Positions 2,041-16,060 of a DNA stretch of 64,000 nt are shown one piece after another. A program made the position numbers and the translations under genes. Under the pieces are notes generated by a model. That model saw only the letters and a list, made by a program, of their open reading frames with translations, did no database searches and had not been told where the DNA came from. Source of the stretch: Terriglobia bacterium (lineage in GTDB: Bacteria > Acidobacteriota > Terriglobia > JAJPHL01); contig JAJPHL010000005.1 in NCBI GenBank assembly GCA_021325275.1, positions 1 through 64,000 of the forward strand, read 5' to 3'. The first letter of the stretch is position 1; the number at the start of each line of letters is the position of its first letter.

Positions 2041-2892
2041 TTACCGTCCGGAAGCGGCTTTTTCCTTGGCGACGAGATCAAGGTAGGCTTTTTCCATGCG
2101 ATTGATGTGATCCTGATACCCCGCGGGGTCAATGAAGGGATTGGGTTGCTCGCCGCGCTTAAAACGGTCGTACTTCGCGGCCATGTTGTAATAACCGCCG
2201 TGCGCGCCGAGGAAAATATCGCAGTGCAGCGAACGCAGGACGCGGAAGGTTTTCGCCATGTCGTCCGAGACGCCCGGATATTTTGGATTGTTCAGCAATT
2301 GCACGCCGGGGTTCACCGTGGTCCCGCCGACGATCACGACGTCGAGCTTCTTGCCGCCGTCGTCGACCTGCATGGTCCACGTGGTGCAGCCGATCGAGTG
2401 GCCGCCGGTGACGTGCGCCACAAGTGTCGTGCCGCCGAGCTCGACTTTGTCTCCGTCCGAGAGTTTGCGATCCACTTTGACCACCGGGTACGTGTACTCA
2501 CTGCCCCAGCGGAAATCGGTCTTGCCGCCCGACTCCATCACGCCGGCGTCGGCGGTGGAAGCGAAAATCTTCGCGCCGCCGGTCATTTTTTGCAACGCGG
2601 CCATTCCTGCCACGTGATCGAAATGCGCCTGGCCGTTCAGCAGGATTCTTACGTCGGTGATTTTGAAACCGAGCTTTTGAATGCTGTCGCGCACCTGCGC
2701 CGCGGTGTCCTCGTACCCCACATTGATCACGATGTGACCTTGCGGCGTCGAGACAAGATACGCCGTGATGTCGCTGGTGCCGACGTAGTACAAATTGCCG
2801 GCAATCCGGTAAGGCTCGACGGGTTGCGTGTCCTTGCGTTGAGCGCAAGCGGCAAGCGAAAGTACCAGGAGCGATAGAAAAAAGCGCTTCAT
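2041..2892 (-). CDS. Lipoprotein subclass B3-like metallo-beta-lactamase with Gln in the first zinc position
   Basis: A 283-residue MBL-fold protein. The N-terminus has a lipobox, LSLAAC (Cys16), so it is predicted to be a lipoprotein. The zinc motif reads Q88-A-H90-F-D92-H93 instead of HxHxDH; His165 (GGHSIGCTTW) and His231 (GAHGGYYN) supply the remaining ligands. The GHS/T-x-G-C-T-x-W segment and the late His are typical of subclass B3 (L1, GOB, FEZ), and Gln at this first position is the known GOB-type substitution. Family knowledge predicts carbapenem/cephalosporin hydrolysis, but environmental B3-like proteins may act on other substrates. It shares a strand with the downstream esterase. 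Confidence 0.8.
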   Translation of the reverse strand: MKRFFLSLLVLSLAACAQRKDTQPVEPYRIAGNLYYVGTSDITAYLVSTPQGHIVINVGYEDTAAQVRDSIQKLGFKITDVRILLNGQAHFDHVAGMAALQKMTGGAKIFASTADAGVMESGGKTDFRWGSEYTYPVVKVDRKLSDGDKVELGGTTLVAHVTGGHSIGCTTWTMQVDDGGKKLDVVIVGGTTVNPGVQLLNNPKYPGVSDDMAKTFRVLRSLHCDIFLGAHGGYYNMAAKYDRFKRGEQPNPFIDPAGYQDHINRMEKAYLDLVAKEKAASGR

Positions 2893-2990
2893 GCGCTTAC
2901 GGTATCACGATCAGTCGTTGCGTTCGGCAACCGTCACTTCGGCTAGCCGATCAGGTCACCGAAATGTTCGGTCGGTACTCAGTTCGTCCG

Positions 2991-3202
2991 ATCCCGGAGG
3001 GATCACAGCTTGTAGCCGGTGGTTGAGCGCTGTTTGCGATACCACCGGTTCAGGCAAAAAAAATGGCGATCCCAGAGGGATCGCAGGGGTTTCGTCGATC
3101 GCTGCGATCCCTCCGGGATCGTGGTTCTTGTCCAATGGGTACCGGTGGTATCGCGAAAAACGCTCAACCACCGGCTACAAGCTAGCATCCCTTCCGGGAT
3201 GC
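2991..3202. repeat. Complex palindromic intergenic repeat (REP/REPIN-like)
   Basis: Outer arms at 3009-3049 and 3141-3181 are 41-nt near-perfect reverse complements (CTTGTAGCCGGTGGTTGAGC against its complement). They flank two inner GATCCC(N)GGGATC hairpins at about 3067-3083 and 3105-3120. Each outer arm also abuts a further ATCCC(T/G)xxGGGAT palindrome (2991-3005 and 3185-3202). Such nested palindromes are typical of dispersed REP-like elements; no coding capacity is convincing inside it. Confidence 0.75.
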
Positions 3203-7959: not shown

Positions 7960-8649
7960 ATGCGAAAAACCGCCGTTGCCATTCTCGCGCTCGCACTCAC
8001 CATGTTCGTTACCTCCCTGATCGTGTCGCAAGCACCAAAGCAAGACGACAAAAAGGCCGACGACAAGAAGGCCGCCGTCCCCGACACGCCGACCATGTCC
8101 GACCGCGAGCGCGGGCAGTTGCGCCAGTTGCTGAACTTGTCGCAGAAAGAATTTCTCGATGCGGTAGAGAACCTGAACGATGCGCAATGGAATTTCAAAT
8201 CGCCGCCCATCGATGGCCGCGAGCGCTGGTCGATCGCGCAGTGCGCCGAACACATCGTGCTGGCCGAAGGTCTGTTGTTCAGTCAAGTGGAAGCGGCCAT
8301 GGCGGCGCCCGCGATTCCCGATTGGCAAACGAAGACGGCCGGCAAAACTCCACTCCTCCTGAAAGTCATGCCTGATCGCAGCCACAAGGCTGAGGCGCCC
8401 GAAGCCATCCAACCACGCCAGCCGTGGACGCGTGAGGAAACCATCGCCAAGTACAAAGCGGCTCGCGCCAAAACGATCAAGTACGCCGAAACGACCGACG
8501 ATGAAGTGAAATCCCACGTGAAGGATCATCCGTTCCCGGTGTTCGGCACGCTGAGCGCGTATCAGTGGTTGATCTACATCCCGTTGCACAACATGCGTCA
8601 CAACCAGCAGATCCTGGAAGTCAAGACGTACGCCGGTTATCCCAAATAG
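7960..8649 (+). CDS. Secreted DinB-family protein
   Basis: A 229-residue protein. A signal anchor (RKTAVAILALALTMFVTSLIVS) is followed by a Lys/Asp-rich linker. The DinB four-helix bundle contains the spaced His residues typical of the family's metal site: CAEHIVLAE near residue 100 and PLHNMRHNQQIL near the end. DinB/DUF664 proteins include thiol-dependent transferases, but the role of exported versions is unknown. The start at 7960 was preferred over an upstream in-frame start at 7837 because it begins the signal sequence and sits just after TATAAT. Confidence 0.7.
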   Translation: MRKTAVAILALALTMFVTSLIVSQAPKQDDKKADDKKAAVPDTPTMSDRERGQLRQLLNLSQKEFLDAVENLNDAQWNFKSPPIDGRERWSIAQCAEHIVLAEGLLFSQVEAAMAAPAIPDWQTKTAGKTPLLLKVMPDRSHKAEAPEAIQPRQPWTREETIAKYKAARAKTIKYAETTDDEVKSHVKDHPFPVFGTLSAYQWLIYIPLHNMRHNQQILEVKTYAGYPK

Positions 8650-8676
8650 GAGGTAGTGGCGCTTTAGTGTGGAGAC

Positions 8677-9147
8677 CTATTGCGGACGTTCGATTTTGGT
8701 TATCTCGAACTGGTGGGGCGTGACCGAATGGTCGAACCGCACCTGGAACTTGTCAAAGAAGCCATTGCGTCCTAGGATTCCATTGACCGATAGCTTCTTC
8801 ATGAAGCCAGCCTTTACTTCAATCACCCAATCGCTCTCCACGAAGATTCGCACCTTGTGAAAGTAGACCGGCTCTGTTATTCCCTGAACAACTCCGCCCA
8901 TGCTGTCCACCTCCCCACTCTTGAGATCAATCCCAAGAAAGTCGGCAAGATCGGTTTTGAACAGGCAGCAGGGCGAGCCAGAGTCTACCACTACGTCAAA
9001 CCGCATGGTTTGCACGTGCGCCTTGAGTTTGGCCACTCGGACTTTGAGCGTCGGGACCCACACAACGCCCTCCGTACCGTGGATCGGGTGGGTTTTGTCC
9101 GGCGGAAGGTCCAGGGGGAACTTCGTATAGGTCTTCAGCACATACAC
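8677..9147 (-). CDS. Retropepsin-like aspartic protease domain protein (clan AA)
   Basis: A 156-residue single-domain protein. FDVVVDSGSPCCLF is the catalytic D-S/T-G flap-adjacent motif and VNGILGRNGFFDKFQVRFDH is the conserved hydrophobic-Gly segment near the end of the fold. Bacterial single-domain retropepsins work as homodimers; whether this one is proteolytic is not shown. The start is GTG at 9147, inside the end of the upstream 70-residue ORF (13-nt overlap), suggesting translational coupling. The two form a small accessory operon. Confidence 0.65.
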   Translation of the reverse strand: MYVLKTYTKFPLDLPPDKTHPIHGTEGVVWVPTLKVRVAKLKAHVQTMRFDVVVDSGSPCCLFKTDLADFLGIDLKSGEVDSMGGVVQGITEPVYFHKVRIFVESDWVIEVKAGFMKKLSVNGILGRNGFFDKFQVRFDHSVTPHQFEITKIERPQ

Positions 9148-9347
9148 CTACTCTGGTAGACGGATGGCAAGAAGAGCTTGGGCACCCAGGTGATGATGGG
9201 GTCATCGACACCGTGCTTCTTGGCATCCTCAACAGCCTCGGCAACGGTCTCACCTCGGCCAACTACCTCGGACTCATCCGCATTCAGCGCAATCCAGCAG
9301 TTGCGTGGCGCTTTCCTCAGCACCTCGGTTGTATCAATGGCATTCAT
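9135..9347 (-). CDS. Small DUF5678-like protein, upstream partner of the retropepsin-like gene
   Basis: A 70-residue soluble protein: a short N-terminal helix, then NCWIALNADESEVVGRGETVAEAVEDAKKHGVDDPIITWVPK. This WxALN..VVGxGxTxxEAxxxAxxxG pattern is typical of DUF5678-type proteins often found beside retropepsin-like genes. ATG at 9347 was chosen over GTG at 9353 because GGAAGGG sits about 7 nt upstream. The stop overlaps the protease start by 13 nt. Function unknown; the pairing suggests the protein may be substrate, inhibitor or adaptor of the protease (inference). Confidence 0.6.
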   Translation of the reverse strand: MNAIDTTEVLRKAPRNCWIALNADESEVVGRGETVAEAVEDAKKHGVDDPIITWVPKLFLPSVYQSRCMC

Positions 9348-9464
9348 AGGCACACCCTTCCATGATGTGTGTGGGGAACACTCCAGCGTCTGTGCGCGCA
9401 GACCCTGAAGCCTTCATCTGAGATTCTGTTTCACTCGCAAGATATCGTCAACCCAAAATAGAGC

Positions 9465-9493
9465 TTGACGCCATTTGTATCATCGGATACATT
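9465..9493 (+). promoter_or_regulatory. Promoter of the RHH gene (TTGACG-17-TACATT)
   Basis: TTGACG (9465-9470) and TACATT (9488-9493) are separated by 17 nt. TACATT ends 7 nt before the ATG at 9501, so the transcript would be leaderless or nearly so. Confidence 0.55.
9476..9491. promoter_or_regulatory. Palindromic operator inside the RHH-gene promoter
   Basis: TGTATC-ATCG-GATACA is a perfect 6+6 inverted repeat lying in the spacer and overlapping the -10 element. Ribbon-helix-helix antitoxins usually autorepress through such short palindromes, so binding by the adjacent gene product is a natural inference. Confidence 0.5.
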
Positions 9494-9500
9494 CTTCAAC

Positions 9501-9719
9501 ATGGATACAAAGACTATCAACCTGCGAGACCTGCCGGAGGAACTGGTGCGCCGAGCGAAAGCGTGCGCAGCTCTACATGGGACCACTCTGAAAGGCTTCG
9601 TGGCTATGGCAATTGCAGAGGCGGTCCAGAAAGACATCCCGTTACTACCGCACGGTGCATTGCTTGCTGCCCAGCCCAAAAATAGAACGACCAAGAAAAG
9701 GAAAACGGCCCACGAGTAA
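9501..9719 (+). CDS. Ribbon-helix-helix (Arc/CopG-type) regulator or antitoxin-like protein
   Basis: A 72-residue basic protein. TKTINLRDLPEELVRRAKACAALHGTTLKGFVAMAIAEAV is a beta-strand followed by two helices, the classic RHH/Arc fold, with a Lys/Arg-rich tail (KNRTTKKRKTAHE). It would bind DNA as a dimer, plausibly the palindrome in its own promoter. No toxin gene follows: a terminator hairpin and a tRNA come next, so it may be an orphan antitoxin or a small regulator. ATG 9501 was preferred to TTG 9465 because the latter is the -35 element. Confidence 0.6.
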   Translation: MDTKTINLRDLPEELVRRAKACAALHGTTLKGFVAMAIAEAVQKDIPLLPHGALLAAQPKNRTTKKRKTAHE

Positions 9720-9749
9720 TGGACACAACATCCAACTCGTGGGCCGTTT
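9703..9749. terminator. Intrinsic terminator-like hairpin after the RHH gene
   Basis: A perfect 15-bp stem (AAACGGCCCACGAGT, 9703-9717, with its complement at 9735-9749) has a 17-nt loop and ends in TTT. The left arm overlaps the stop codon of the RHH gene. Confidence 0.6.
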
Positions 9750-9761
9750 CCACTTCGATGC

Positions 9762-9838
9762 GGCCCCTTAGCTTAACCGGAAAAAGCGCCTGTCTGCTAA
9801 ACGGGGTGATGCCGGTCCGAATCCGGCAGGGGTCGCCA
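9762..9838 (+). tRNA. tRNA with anticodon GCU (Ser codons AGC/AGU) but a class I short variable loop
   Basis: A full cloverleaf can be drawn by hand. Acceptor GGCCCCT/AGGGGTC (9762-9768, 9828-9834; one G-U), T8-A9, D stem GCTT/AAGC with a G18G19 loop, anticodon stem CCTGT/ACGGG (one U-G), loop CTGCTAA with anticodon GCT at 9796-9798. The variable loop is only five nt (GTGAT); the T stem is GCCGG/CCGGC, discriminator G, encoded CCA 9836-9838. Bacterial tRNA-Ser normally has a long variable arm recognised by SerRS, which is absent. The T loop reads TCCGAAT, so position 55 is C rather than the near-universal T. It could be active, a decoy/mobile-element tRNA, or a decaying copy. Confidence 0.75.
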
Positions 9839-10239
9839 AACACTAACGAAAGAGTCCTGGCAGTTGCGCTAACCCACCACCAGGACCGTGAATCGCACAG
9901 CCGAAGCCGCACGAGTCCGCAACTCAAGTATCCGGCAATCGGCTGTGAAACTCAACAGGAGATTTCACAGTTGTCAAACCAAAGTAGAAATGTCCCCATA
10001 GTTACCAAAGTAGAATGTTGAACCAAAGTGATAGTGTCCTGCCCCGATCACTGCCCAGAACTAGATTCCTGGGCATCAGCGATACCACCTTCCATCCATG
10101 GAGAAAGTGGTTGAACTTGCCCGCGAAACCTGTACGGAGACCTCGGCCATCAGCCAAGAAAAGAAAGTCGCCCCCGTCTCCACACAAAAGCACCACTACC
10201 AAGTAGGACATGCGTCCTCGCCTGTCCCGCGGCATGCGA
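9839..10239. other. Gene-free stretch with nested inverted repeats and insertion-sequence-like debris
   Basis: No convincing gene. Three inverted repeats are visible: GTCCTGG/CCAGGAC (9854-9886), a 9-bp CACAGCCGA/TCGGCTGTG pair (9896-9947), and GTGAAA/TTTCAC (9945-9968). From about 9978 to 10045 a degenerate motif, ACCAAAGTAGAAATGTCC-like, occurs three times (the third as ACCAAAGTGATAGTGTCC). This looks like remnant IS ends, though no transposase is recognisable. A short basic ORF at 10015-10206 is not supported. Confidence 0.35.
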
Positions 10240-14584: not shown

Positions 14585-15427
14585 TTATGGTTTCTTGACC
14601 GGCTCGTCGCCGAAGGTGATGGTCGATTGCGCGCCGAACTGTTGCGCGATGGTGCGAGATTCTGAGACGAGTCCTTGCTTCATCTTTGGCGCGTTTGGCG
14701 CAAACTTACGTGCCCGCATGACGTAGATGCCGGGCTTTTCCGGCGCGGTCTCCACGCGCTTGCGCGTCACGATCCAAAAATCGTTTTCAGCGCGGCCCGC
14801 GCGGTCGTGTTGCAGCGTGTAGTCGAGCTCGAACGTGGTTCCTTTGTCGAGCCACCATTCCTGATGTCCGTGCTTGATGCGGCATCCGCCCGCGACGACT
14901 TCGGCGTGAATCGATTTCGGGAAGAACGTCGCACGGTCGAGATGCACGGTACCGGCGATCGCCGCCGCGCATTTCGCCAGAGGATCGCTCGACGGAAGAT
15001 GCTTGTCCGGCAAAATCACAATGGTCGTGTCGGTCGCCGTTTCCGCGGAGATCGTGCCCATGCGGCTCTGCAAGAGCTTGTCGAGCGCCATCGTGGACAA
15101 ATTGAGATCGGTTTCCACGAGCTGGCATCGCGTGTCGTTGTCCGCGCCCTCGGGATACGGCGGCGTGCCGTCGCTCCAGGAGAGAATCGCCTCGCAGCGG
15201 CGGCCATCGCTGCGGACAATTGATTCAGCTTTGACGACTGGAAATTCCTGCACCGTTTTTCCCGCGGTGTCGCGCGTGAACGCGCGTTCCTCCACGGTCC
15301 AGTTCCAGTTGACCATCTTGGCCTGGTTTTTCTGAAACGCGTCGTTGGCTTTGGCGAGAAGGGCGGTCGCATCCTGCGCGGTCAATGTGGCCGTGGCGAG
15401 AGCAGCGGCTAAGACCAGCCGGATCAA
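14585..15427 (-). CDS. Secreted hypothetical protein
   Basis: A 280-residue protein of unknown function. A hydrophobic signal sequence (LIRLVLAAALATATLTAQD) is followed by a mainly beta domain with WNWTVEERAF, RRCEAILSWSDG, GCRIKHGHQEWWLDKGTTFELDYTLQHDR and RKRVETAPEKPGIYVMRARK. I place the start at TTG 15427, whose TTGA overlaps the vapC stop and is preceded by GGAG; longer in-frame starts run into the toxin gene. It is co-oriented with vapBC upstream and the kinase 3 bp downstream, so the four genes may be one transcript. It does not resemble an enzyme family I recognise. Confidence 0.55.
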   Translation of the reverse strand: MIRLVLAAALATATLTAQDATALLAKANDAFQKNQAKMVNWNWTVEERAFTRDTAGKTVQEFPVVKAESIVRSDGRRCEAILSWSDGTPPYPEGADNDTRCQLVETDLNLSTMALDKLLQSRMGTISAETATDTTIVILPDKHLPSSDPLAKCAAAIAGTVHLDRATFFPKSIHAEVVAGGCRIKHGHQEWWLDKGTTFELDYTLQHDRAGRAENDFWIVTRKRVETAPEKPGIYVMRARKFAPNAPKMKQGLVSESRTIAQQFGAQSTITFGDEPVKKP

Positions 15428-15807
15428 GAGAGAATCTCCGCCCCATCCATTTTCGCGAGATCCCGATCGAATGTACCGAAGGGCAGGTGTCCGGCGTGAC
15501 GAGCCGTCTCGAGCATCATGCAATCGGTAAATCCCAAAGATGGCCTCTTTTGAAAGAGCTTCAGTGCCGCAATGACGATGGTCGGCTCTTGAAAAGAGAG
15601 ACTGTCGTGCGCGAGAAGCCACTCCACCGCGTTGGCAACACGGGATGGGTCGAAGCGAAAAGCCGACCTTAACACCCACACGCATTCAGTTAACGCAATG
15701 TGTGATACCCAGACACCGCCTTGCACGAATGCTTTCGCGATTCTGGTCTGGGATGGATCGTCTTGAGCGACCAGCCGAACAAGAACGTTAGTATCGGCCG
15801 AGCGCAT
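15424..15807 (-). CDS. vapC: VapC-type PIN-domain ribonuclease toxin
   Basis: A 127-residue PIN domain. The acidic metal-binding set is complete: Asp5 (SADTNVLVR), Glu41 (LTECVWVL), Asp95 (GFTDCMML) and Asp114 (TFDRDL). Family members cleave specific RNAs, often initiator tRNA or 23S rRNA, when released from antitoxin. It starts inside the end of the AbrB-type antitoxin gene (20-nt overlap), the usual arrangement for a coupled module. Its stop overlaps a downstream secreted-protein gene by a TTGA. Confidence 0.88.
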   Translation of the reverse strand: MRSADTNVLVRLVAQDDPSQTRIAKAFVQGGVWVSHIALTECVWVLRSAFRFDPSRVANAVEWLLAHDSLSFQEPTIVIAALKLFQKRPSLGFTDCMMLETARHAGHLPFGTFDRDLAKMDGAEILS

Positions 15808-16060
15808 GGCGTTCCAGGATGTACGTTTCGCGGGCTTTCTTCAACTCTCGTAAACTCCGCCGTTTCGGTGGTCCATCGGGAAAGAGCATCTTGTGGATGT
15901 CGTCCCAGGAATACTTCTTCCCGACGCGCTGAACAATCAGGTTCTGTCCGTCCTCTTTCCACTCGAGCACGGAGCCCGGCCCGACGCCGAGCCTGCGCCG
16001 CACTTCGATCGGCACGGAAATCTGACCTTGCGCAGTGATCTTAGATGTTGCCAGGGCCAT
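15788..16060 (-). CDS. vapB: AbrB/MazE-type antitoxin (VapB)
   Basis: A 90-residue protein with an N-terminal swapped-hairpin AbrB domain, SKITAQGQISVPIEVRRRLGVGPGSVLEWKEDGQNLIVQRV. The C-terminal tail (KKYSWDDIHKMLF..RRSLRELKKARETYILERHALGRY) should wrap the toxin. It neutralises VapC and probably autorepresses. TAATAT (16067-16072) lies exactly 6 nt before the ATG, and an imperfect ACTACCGGTGGT palindrome directly upstream is a candidate operator. Confidence 0.87.
   Translation of the reverse strand: MALATSKITAQGQISVPIEVRRRLGVGPGSVLEWKEDGQNLIVQRVGKKYSWDDIHKMLFPDGPPKRRSLRELKKARETYILERHALGRY

Follow-up and report, generated by a model that had tools for sequence, protein, structure and literature searches.

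A tRNA with the anticodon GCU, which belongs to the serine codons AGC and AGU, but with a short variable loop raises the question of which amino acid it would deliver and what brought it to its present place. Such a gene lies in the stretch of Terriglobia bacterium DNA analyzed here (64,000 nucleotides, hereafter the window), and the analysis below takes up the tRNA itself, the element that surrounds it and related elements elsewhere.

A short-armed GCU tRNA with arginine identity bases

The only tRNA that ARAGORN called in the 64 kb lies at 9762-9838 on the forward strand (anticodon GCT) and scored 56 bits against Rfam RF00005 with its gathering score of 29. Its acceptor stem (GGCCCCT/AGGGGTC) is paired at 7/7 positions including one G-U, the anticodon and T stems are both paired at 5/5 positions, and the loops read CTGCTAA (anticodon), GTGAT (variable, 5 nt) and TCCGAAT (T loop, with T54 C55 C56 G57 A58). 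U33 and A37 are retained. Direct reading thus confirmed the complete cloverleaf with encoded CCA, the GCU anticodon, the short variable loop and C55 of the preliminary description, and the tertiary positions that it had listed (T8, A15-T48, G18 G19 and A58) are all present. Its argument against simple decay stands for the tRNA itself, since all stems pair, with the reservation that this is partly a selection effect because ARAGORN finds only well-formed tRNAs; it does not extend to the surrounding element, which is a transposase-less relic with a sister whose tRNA has decayed. The cloverleaf is the minimum-energy fold (−28.1 kcal/mol), but dinucleotide shuffles fold about equally well (z −0.13), so that folding energy by itself is no evidence. 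The short-arm GCU tRNA pattern matched once in the window and not at all in 100 shuffles.

The source genome (6.86 Mb in 75 contigs, 97.6% complete, 47 RF00005 matches) also has an ordinary long-arm tRNA-Ser(GCU) at C34:40203 and a tRNA-Arg(UCU), so the GCU tRNA of the window is an extra gene. The comparison with the tRNA genes of the genome that had been proposed bore out the anomaly: its four tRNA-Ser genes are 90–94 nt in length and long-armed, whereas the long variable arm read by SerRS is replaced by five nucleotides in the window tRNA. Two further tRNA calls in this genome are odd in other ways, one at C6:223469-223539 having no clear anticodon and one at C58:2403-2491 being a 90-nt tRNA-Pro(UGG).

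The closest tRNAs by BLAST in plasmid and phage collections were tRNA-Arg(UCU) of Sinorhizobium (77.9%) and of Escherichia/Salmonella phages (75.3%), all with an acceptor stem identical to that of the window tRNA; a tRNA-Met of an Aeromonas phage gave a shorter match, and a GCU tRNA of Nitrospirillum with C55 (L108) was equally near by identity (0.78). The window tRNA has 16–17 differences from the nearest Arg tRNA. In viral contigs with its acceptor type, the anticodon was UCU in 11/11 cases. It thus shares the acceptor stem, G73, A20, C35 and U36 with phage and alphaproteobacterial tRNA-Arg(UCU), and differs from them in G34 instead of U34, in C55 and in A15-T48, at 75–78% identity.

ArgRS recognizes A20, C35, U or G at position 36 and A or G at position 73 and ignores base 34, A20 being the chief arginine mark besides C35, while LeuRS and SerRS do not read the anticodon at all. 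The window tRNA has A20, C35, U36 and G73. A20 occurs in 4/4 tRNA-Arg genes and 0/41 other tRNAs of the same genome and in 76/109 short-arm GCU tRNAs, and G73 is common to the window tRNA and the genome's own tRNA-Arg(ACG). When the anticodon was masked, Met came first with 75 in a ranking against the tRNAs of this one genome, Glu and Arg following with 72 each, so the assignment to arginine rests on the identity bases; masked tRNAs of three other loci (L170, L182 and L548) matched Thr best. The window tRNA would probably be charged by a non-seryl synthetase, for which the known identity bases make ArgRS the candidate, and these features suggest that arginine would be inserted at AGY codons if the tRNA is expressed.

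C55, which might be read as a sign of recoding, is a phage-type trait. It was found with at least 28 different anticodons among the viral matches listed, in 13/697 parsed non-selected viral tRNAs on C55 loci, and in 0/45 own tRNAs and 0/126 other parsed tRNAs of genome contigs. Because phage tRNAs of many anticodons carry it, C55 gives no clue to recoding and was dismissed as a sign of it. The combination of A15-T48 and C55 recurs in GCU tRNAs of tRNA-bearing transposons.

The transposon relic and its relatives

The window tRNA sits inside a transposon relic of 1549 bp (8652-10200, Table 1), which settles in favor of a mobile-element tRNA one of the options raised earlier: it lies inside terminal inverted repeats that are flanked by a target duplication with a single mismatch, and relatives lie inside intact transposons. 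The repeats and the duplication are those of the IS1 superfamily. No match to a transposase gene was found within the 64 kb window, where only a leader remnant is left; over 9897-9971 this remnant shares 80% identity with the leader of an IS1-type transposase (L505), and it resembles two others (L520 and L500) more weakly. Because it has no transposase gene of its own, the element is a relic or a non-autonomous member, and its ends, its target duplication, the cargo shared with a transposase-bearing element and the transposase leader show that the carrier belongs to the IS1 superfamily. Hairpins resembling that between the RHH gene and the tRNA were also seen by eye upstream of the tRNA in L425 and L426.

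Table 1. Features of the transposon relic around the window tRNA
Feature	Position	Strand	Evidence
Left target-site duplication AAATAGGA	8644..8651	.	7/8 bases same as 10201-10208
Left terminal inverted repeat GGTAGTGGCGCTTTAGTGTGGAGAC	8652..8676	+	23/25 pairs with 10176-10200
Cargo gene, aspartyl-protease-like, 156 aa	8677..9147	-	PF13650 4.6e-5, at cut-off; 58% identity to G085 gene
Cargo gene, DUF5678-like, 72 aa	9135..9353	-	PF18929 9e-5, just under cut-off; 68% identity in G085
Cargo gene, ribbon-helix-helix (RHH; FitA-antitoxin-like), 72 aa	9501..9719	+	PF22513 6.7e-4, under cut-off; 62% identity in G085
Hairpin, RHH gene to tRNA	9703..9749	+	Inverted repeat I2, 15 perfect pairs, 100%
tRNA gene	9762..9838	+	Anticodon GCU, short variable loop, C55, G73, encoded CCA
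Transposase leader remnant (hairpin 9854-9886, structured 9889-9954)	9854..9971	+	Inverted repeat I4; no transposase gene behind
Right terminal inverted repeat	10176..10200	-	23/25 pairs with 8652-8676
Right target-site duplication AAGTAGGA	10201..10208	.	7/8 match to 8644-8651

Other origins and links were considered and set aside. A prophage as carrier was rejected, there being no phage integrase on the contig (C62) and no further copy of the 3′ end of the tRNA anywhere in the window; a link of the tRNA to the adjoining dihydrouridine synthase gene was rejected since 11 relatives have no tRNA at that locus, and the RHH gene was rejected as a phage gene since no viral relative of it was found. 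Within the element, short repeats around ACCAAAGTAGAA/GAACCAAAGT at 9972-10039, for which no plasmid match was found, are possibly the relic of another insertion sequence. Further downstream in the window, a PIN-domain gene and a MazE-type antitoxin gene form a VapBC-like pair (15424-16060, reverse strand).

The end sequence of the relic also bounds a second stretch of this genome (C68:30428-33434), flanked on both sides by the duplication CGAGGACG (8/8). This C68 element holds a decayed tRNA with the anticodon loop CTGCTAA (32.8 bits, acceptor lost), directly followed, as judged by eye, by the C-terminus of a transposase as an IS1-type remnant, and its cargo consists of an HTH and a Gp49-like protein (weak matches). 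An element in a relative (genome G085) has the three cargo genes of the window in the same order, followed after the RHH gene by an intact IS1-type transposase, and no tRNA. Since cargo and leader are shared with such transposase-bearing relatives, the transposase of the window element was lost, and its tRNA has no counterpart in the G085 element.

Perfect 8-bp duplications enclose both a tRNA and an IS1-type transposase in L543 and L542 (both GCU), L546 (UUA), and L170 and L182 (both GCU), the first three being longer stretches around L481, L467 and L518, respectively. When the surroundings of 140 short-arm GCU loci were searched for repeats, many chance repeats came up, and perfect 8-bp duplications at the ends of inverted repeats were seen only in L182, L170 and L133 (L142, also 8/8, was left out because its match arose only when the sequences were shifted by 9 within an AT-rich repeat). 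The elements of this family have GGTAGTG-type ends, 8-bp duplications and a transposase matching PF03400 and NCBIfam IS1, in all of which they are like IS1-superfamily elements with passenger genes; they differ from these in that the transposase scores below the NCBIfam IS1 cut-off, in the tRNA that they carry and, for the window copy, in having no transposase. Neighbors of the alphaproteobacterial GCU tRNAs with C55 include IS1- or IS1595-type transposases.

In seven alphaproteobacterial and viral elements (L064, L063, L182, L170, L145, L133 and L108) the tRNA is adjoined by a protein gene that we guess from sequence to be coiled-coil/winged-helix-like. A search model built from these loci, which therefore match it by design, gave L152 and L269 as independent hits; as a general partner of the tRNA the protein was rejected, because it was not seen in the window and has 16–29% identity to the reference and no usable family match. 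A structured leader recurs, as seen by eye, upstream of IS1-type transposases in L432, L433, L435, L436, L444, L450 and L453, in which a hairpin is followed by AATCC and then by a stretch whose end can pair with bases close to the start codon; this leader may be a regulatory RNA.

tRNAs beside IS1-type transposases and what they may do

IS1-type transposases were found in 122/397 Terriglobia genomes. The survey covered 146 regions (30 + 80 + 36; 225 kb) around the higher-scoring listed copies, in which ARAGORN called 19 tRNAs against 2.07 expected at 46 per 5 Mb, and 127/146 regions had no tRNA. Two of the tRNAs had no triplet anticodon (L567 and L589). Among the other 17, 15 best matched an isotype other than that of the anticodon (leave-one-out control with own tRNAs: 26/37 right, 11/37 best matching another isotype), and the two that matched their own isotype look like ordinary neighbors (L447, Val; L453, Met). 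The 15 mismatched tRNAs comprised four AGY readers (GCU in L467 and L481, ACU in L445 and L563) and three readers of the stop codons UAA/UAG (UUA on Leu-type bodies in L518 and L519, CUA in L557), as well as UGC on a Ser-type long-arm body (L451), UCC on a body with Pro as top match and Leu next (L434), GUC on an Arg-like body (L485), and UUG, CUG, GUU, CCA and UGU; the body isotype was not clear in, for instance, L516, L554, L562 and L576. None of the 17 triplet anticodons was an Arg anticodon. The search with the end sequence added L426, a tRNA whose Ser-like body bears the anticodon GUA. In 15 tRNAs of the survey together with L426 and the window tRNA, a set of well-formed tRNAs by the selection of ARAGORN, U33 was present in 15/17, a purine at position 37 in 17/17 and a fully paired acceptor stem (7/7) in 16. 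A tRNA adjoined the transposase in 2/31 viral loci (ACU in L375; GCU in L382, on the same contig as L064) and in 0/8 plasmid loci. A tRNA beside the transposase is thus a recurrent cargo of elements of the window's IS1-type group, and similarity shows that the anticodons of these tRNAs do not fit their bodies.

We regard the window tRNA, with a probability of about 0.6, as an anticodon-swapped cargo of a decayed non-autonomous IS1-superfamily transposon, which would most likely miscode when transcribed and processed. The host arginyl-tRNA synthetase would accept and charge it, because by the recognition rules given above the enzyme reads A20, C35, U36 and A/G73 but not base 34; G34 would then put arginine at the serine codons AGC/AGU, for which the ordinary long-arm tRNA-Ser(GCU) would compete. 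Several other swapped bodies fit working miscoding tRNAs in the same way, since their synthetases ignore the changed base (position 34 for ArgRS, the anticodon for LeuRS and SerRS). As a speculation, the benefit to the element could be that of a translation-disturbing weapon or an addiction factor, like its toxin-antitoxin-type neighbors; the genes next to the tRNA are antitoxin-like in the window (RHH) and in the C68 copy (HTH and Gp49-like, weak matches). We propose only tentatively, and with clearly less confidence, that IS1-superfamily transposons of soil bacteria and phages maintain anticodon-swapped tRNAs as dedicated cargo, as weapons or addiction modules causing mistranslation in cells or phages, with Arg-type tRNAs reading AGY, Leu-type reading UAA, and Ser-type reading Tyr or Ala codons beside a cargo of protein toxin-antitoxin genes.

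The same gene could have arisen by capture of a phage or alphaproteobacterial tRNA-Arg(UCU) that is now silent, U34 having changed neutrally to G after capture without any decoding. This is rather unlikely: BLAST does place Arg(UCU) tRNAs with this acceptor stem nearest, the window element is a relic and the C68 sister has lost its tRNA acceptor, but several separate elements have GCU or ACU (window, C68, L467, L481, L445, L563, L375 and L382), Arg anticodons were absent from the 17 survey tRNAs, and the stems are preserved despite the 16–17 differences from the nearest Arg tRNA. The U33 and position 37 counts weigh against the improbable view that the tRNA fold is kept for a non-decoding role (RNA processing, transposase control or decoy for tRNA-cutting toxins) while the anticodon drifts freely. 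The position of the tRNA directly upstream of the structured transposase leader in L445 and L426, the many different anticodons of the survey and the reported use of phage tRNAs against tRNA-cutting defenses (van den Berg 2023) agree with such a role; in L375, however, a terminator-like hairpin and a promoter-like stretch (by eye) separate the tRNA from the transposase, and the mismatched survey tRNAs include AGY readers (4/15) and stop readers (3/15). A private recoding, in which the transposase needs AGY read as Arg and the tRNA is its built-in key, would be consistent with AGY codons in columns that are at least half Arg in other transposases (3/208 in elements with AGY-reading tRNAs, 0/749 in tRNA-less ones). 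Two of the three sites, however, share a column that is also Asp, Pro, Tyr or Cys in tRNA-bearing elements and is thus relaxed, and the two groups of elements differ little in how often they use AGY (2.6 and 2.13 per 100 codons), so that this idea was rejected as unsupported and very improbable.

Known counterparts and wider occurrence

The nearest known kinds to the window tRNA are allo-tRNAs and tRNA-ProX. Allo-tRNAs, according to the accessible part of a review (PMC7609411), are bacterial tRNAs with anticodons foreign to the body, diverse and including an ochre reader, and are present in Acidobacteria; the same part already proposes a transposon or toxin-antitoxin link for one group of them. 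The window tRNA resembles them in its foreign anticodon, whereas the allo-tRNAs described there have 8/4 or 9/3 acceptor/T stems, Ser identity and a long arm, and the window tRNA is short-armed and Arg-marked and pairs fully only in the canonical 7/5 arrangement. tRNA-ProX of Streptomyces, which leads to mistranslation and has a toxic effect in E. coli (commentary PMC10365949), likewise has a body and an anticodon that belong to different amino acids, but it has a Pro body, A34 and an adjacent ProRSx gene, whereas the window tRNA is Arg-marked, has G34 and is transposon-borne, with no synthetase gene among the genes annotated around it. The only trace of transposon-borne miscoding tRNAs in our literature searches was the hypothesis in the accessible part of PMC7609411. 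What is new here is that identity-swapped tRNAs of the canonical 7/5 build occur as cargo of delimited transposons. Identity-swapped bacterial tRNAs have so far been known by sequence, mostly without known carriers, and here the carrier is marked out by its ends and target duplications, together with its transposase and the genes linked to it. If such tRNAs work, miscoding would be a mobile trait spread by transposons and phages, and annotation by anticodon, which makes the window gene a 'tRNA-Ser', would hide it; transposon-borne tRNAs also offer a direct test of why Acidobacteria have identity-swapped tRNAs.

The short-arm GCU pattern was matched in 33 viral stretches and in 105 genome stretches of a collection of 84,980 species. 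These matches are of mixed origin, and some of them resemble, by eye, tRNA-Gly(GCC) with one base changed; 4/399 Terriglobia genomes match, each with a different sequence. The class was inferred to be Terriglobia because its members G219 and G180 gave the very same pattern matches as the contigs L135 (Acidiferrales) and L127 (Terriglobia). Transposase-profile matches occurred in 2/33 viral and 8/105 genome GCU loci, in 3/24 viral ACU loci and in 1/117 loci fetched for C55, that one (L269) having ACU, and some of them lie far from the tRNA (for instance in L175). On one viral contig (L068), a short-arm GCU tRNA and a UUA tRNA (ochre reader) lie at 1602-1676 and 2145-2232 between 73-nt inverted repeats. 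A similar short-arm GCU tRNA-like gene, whose register the stem parser did not fit, is found in 14 Flavobacterium genomes (L090, L094, L105, L115, L120, L122, L132, L147, L153, L156, L157, L160, L184 and L185) and may be conserved in this genus. In a Latescibacterota locus (L091), a short-arm GCU tRNA (2636-2712) adjoins an aspartyl-protease-like gene (2746-3159), by eye as in the window.
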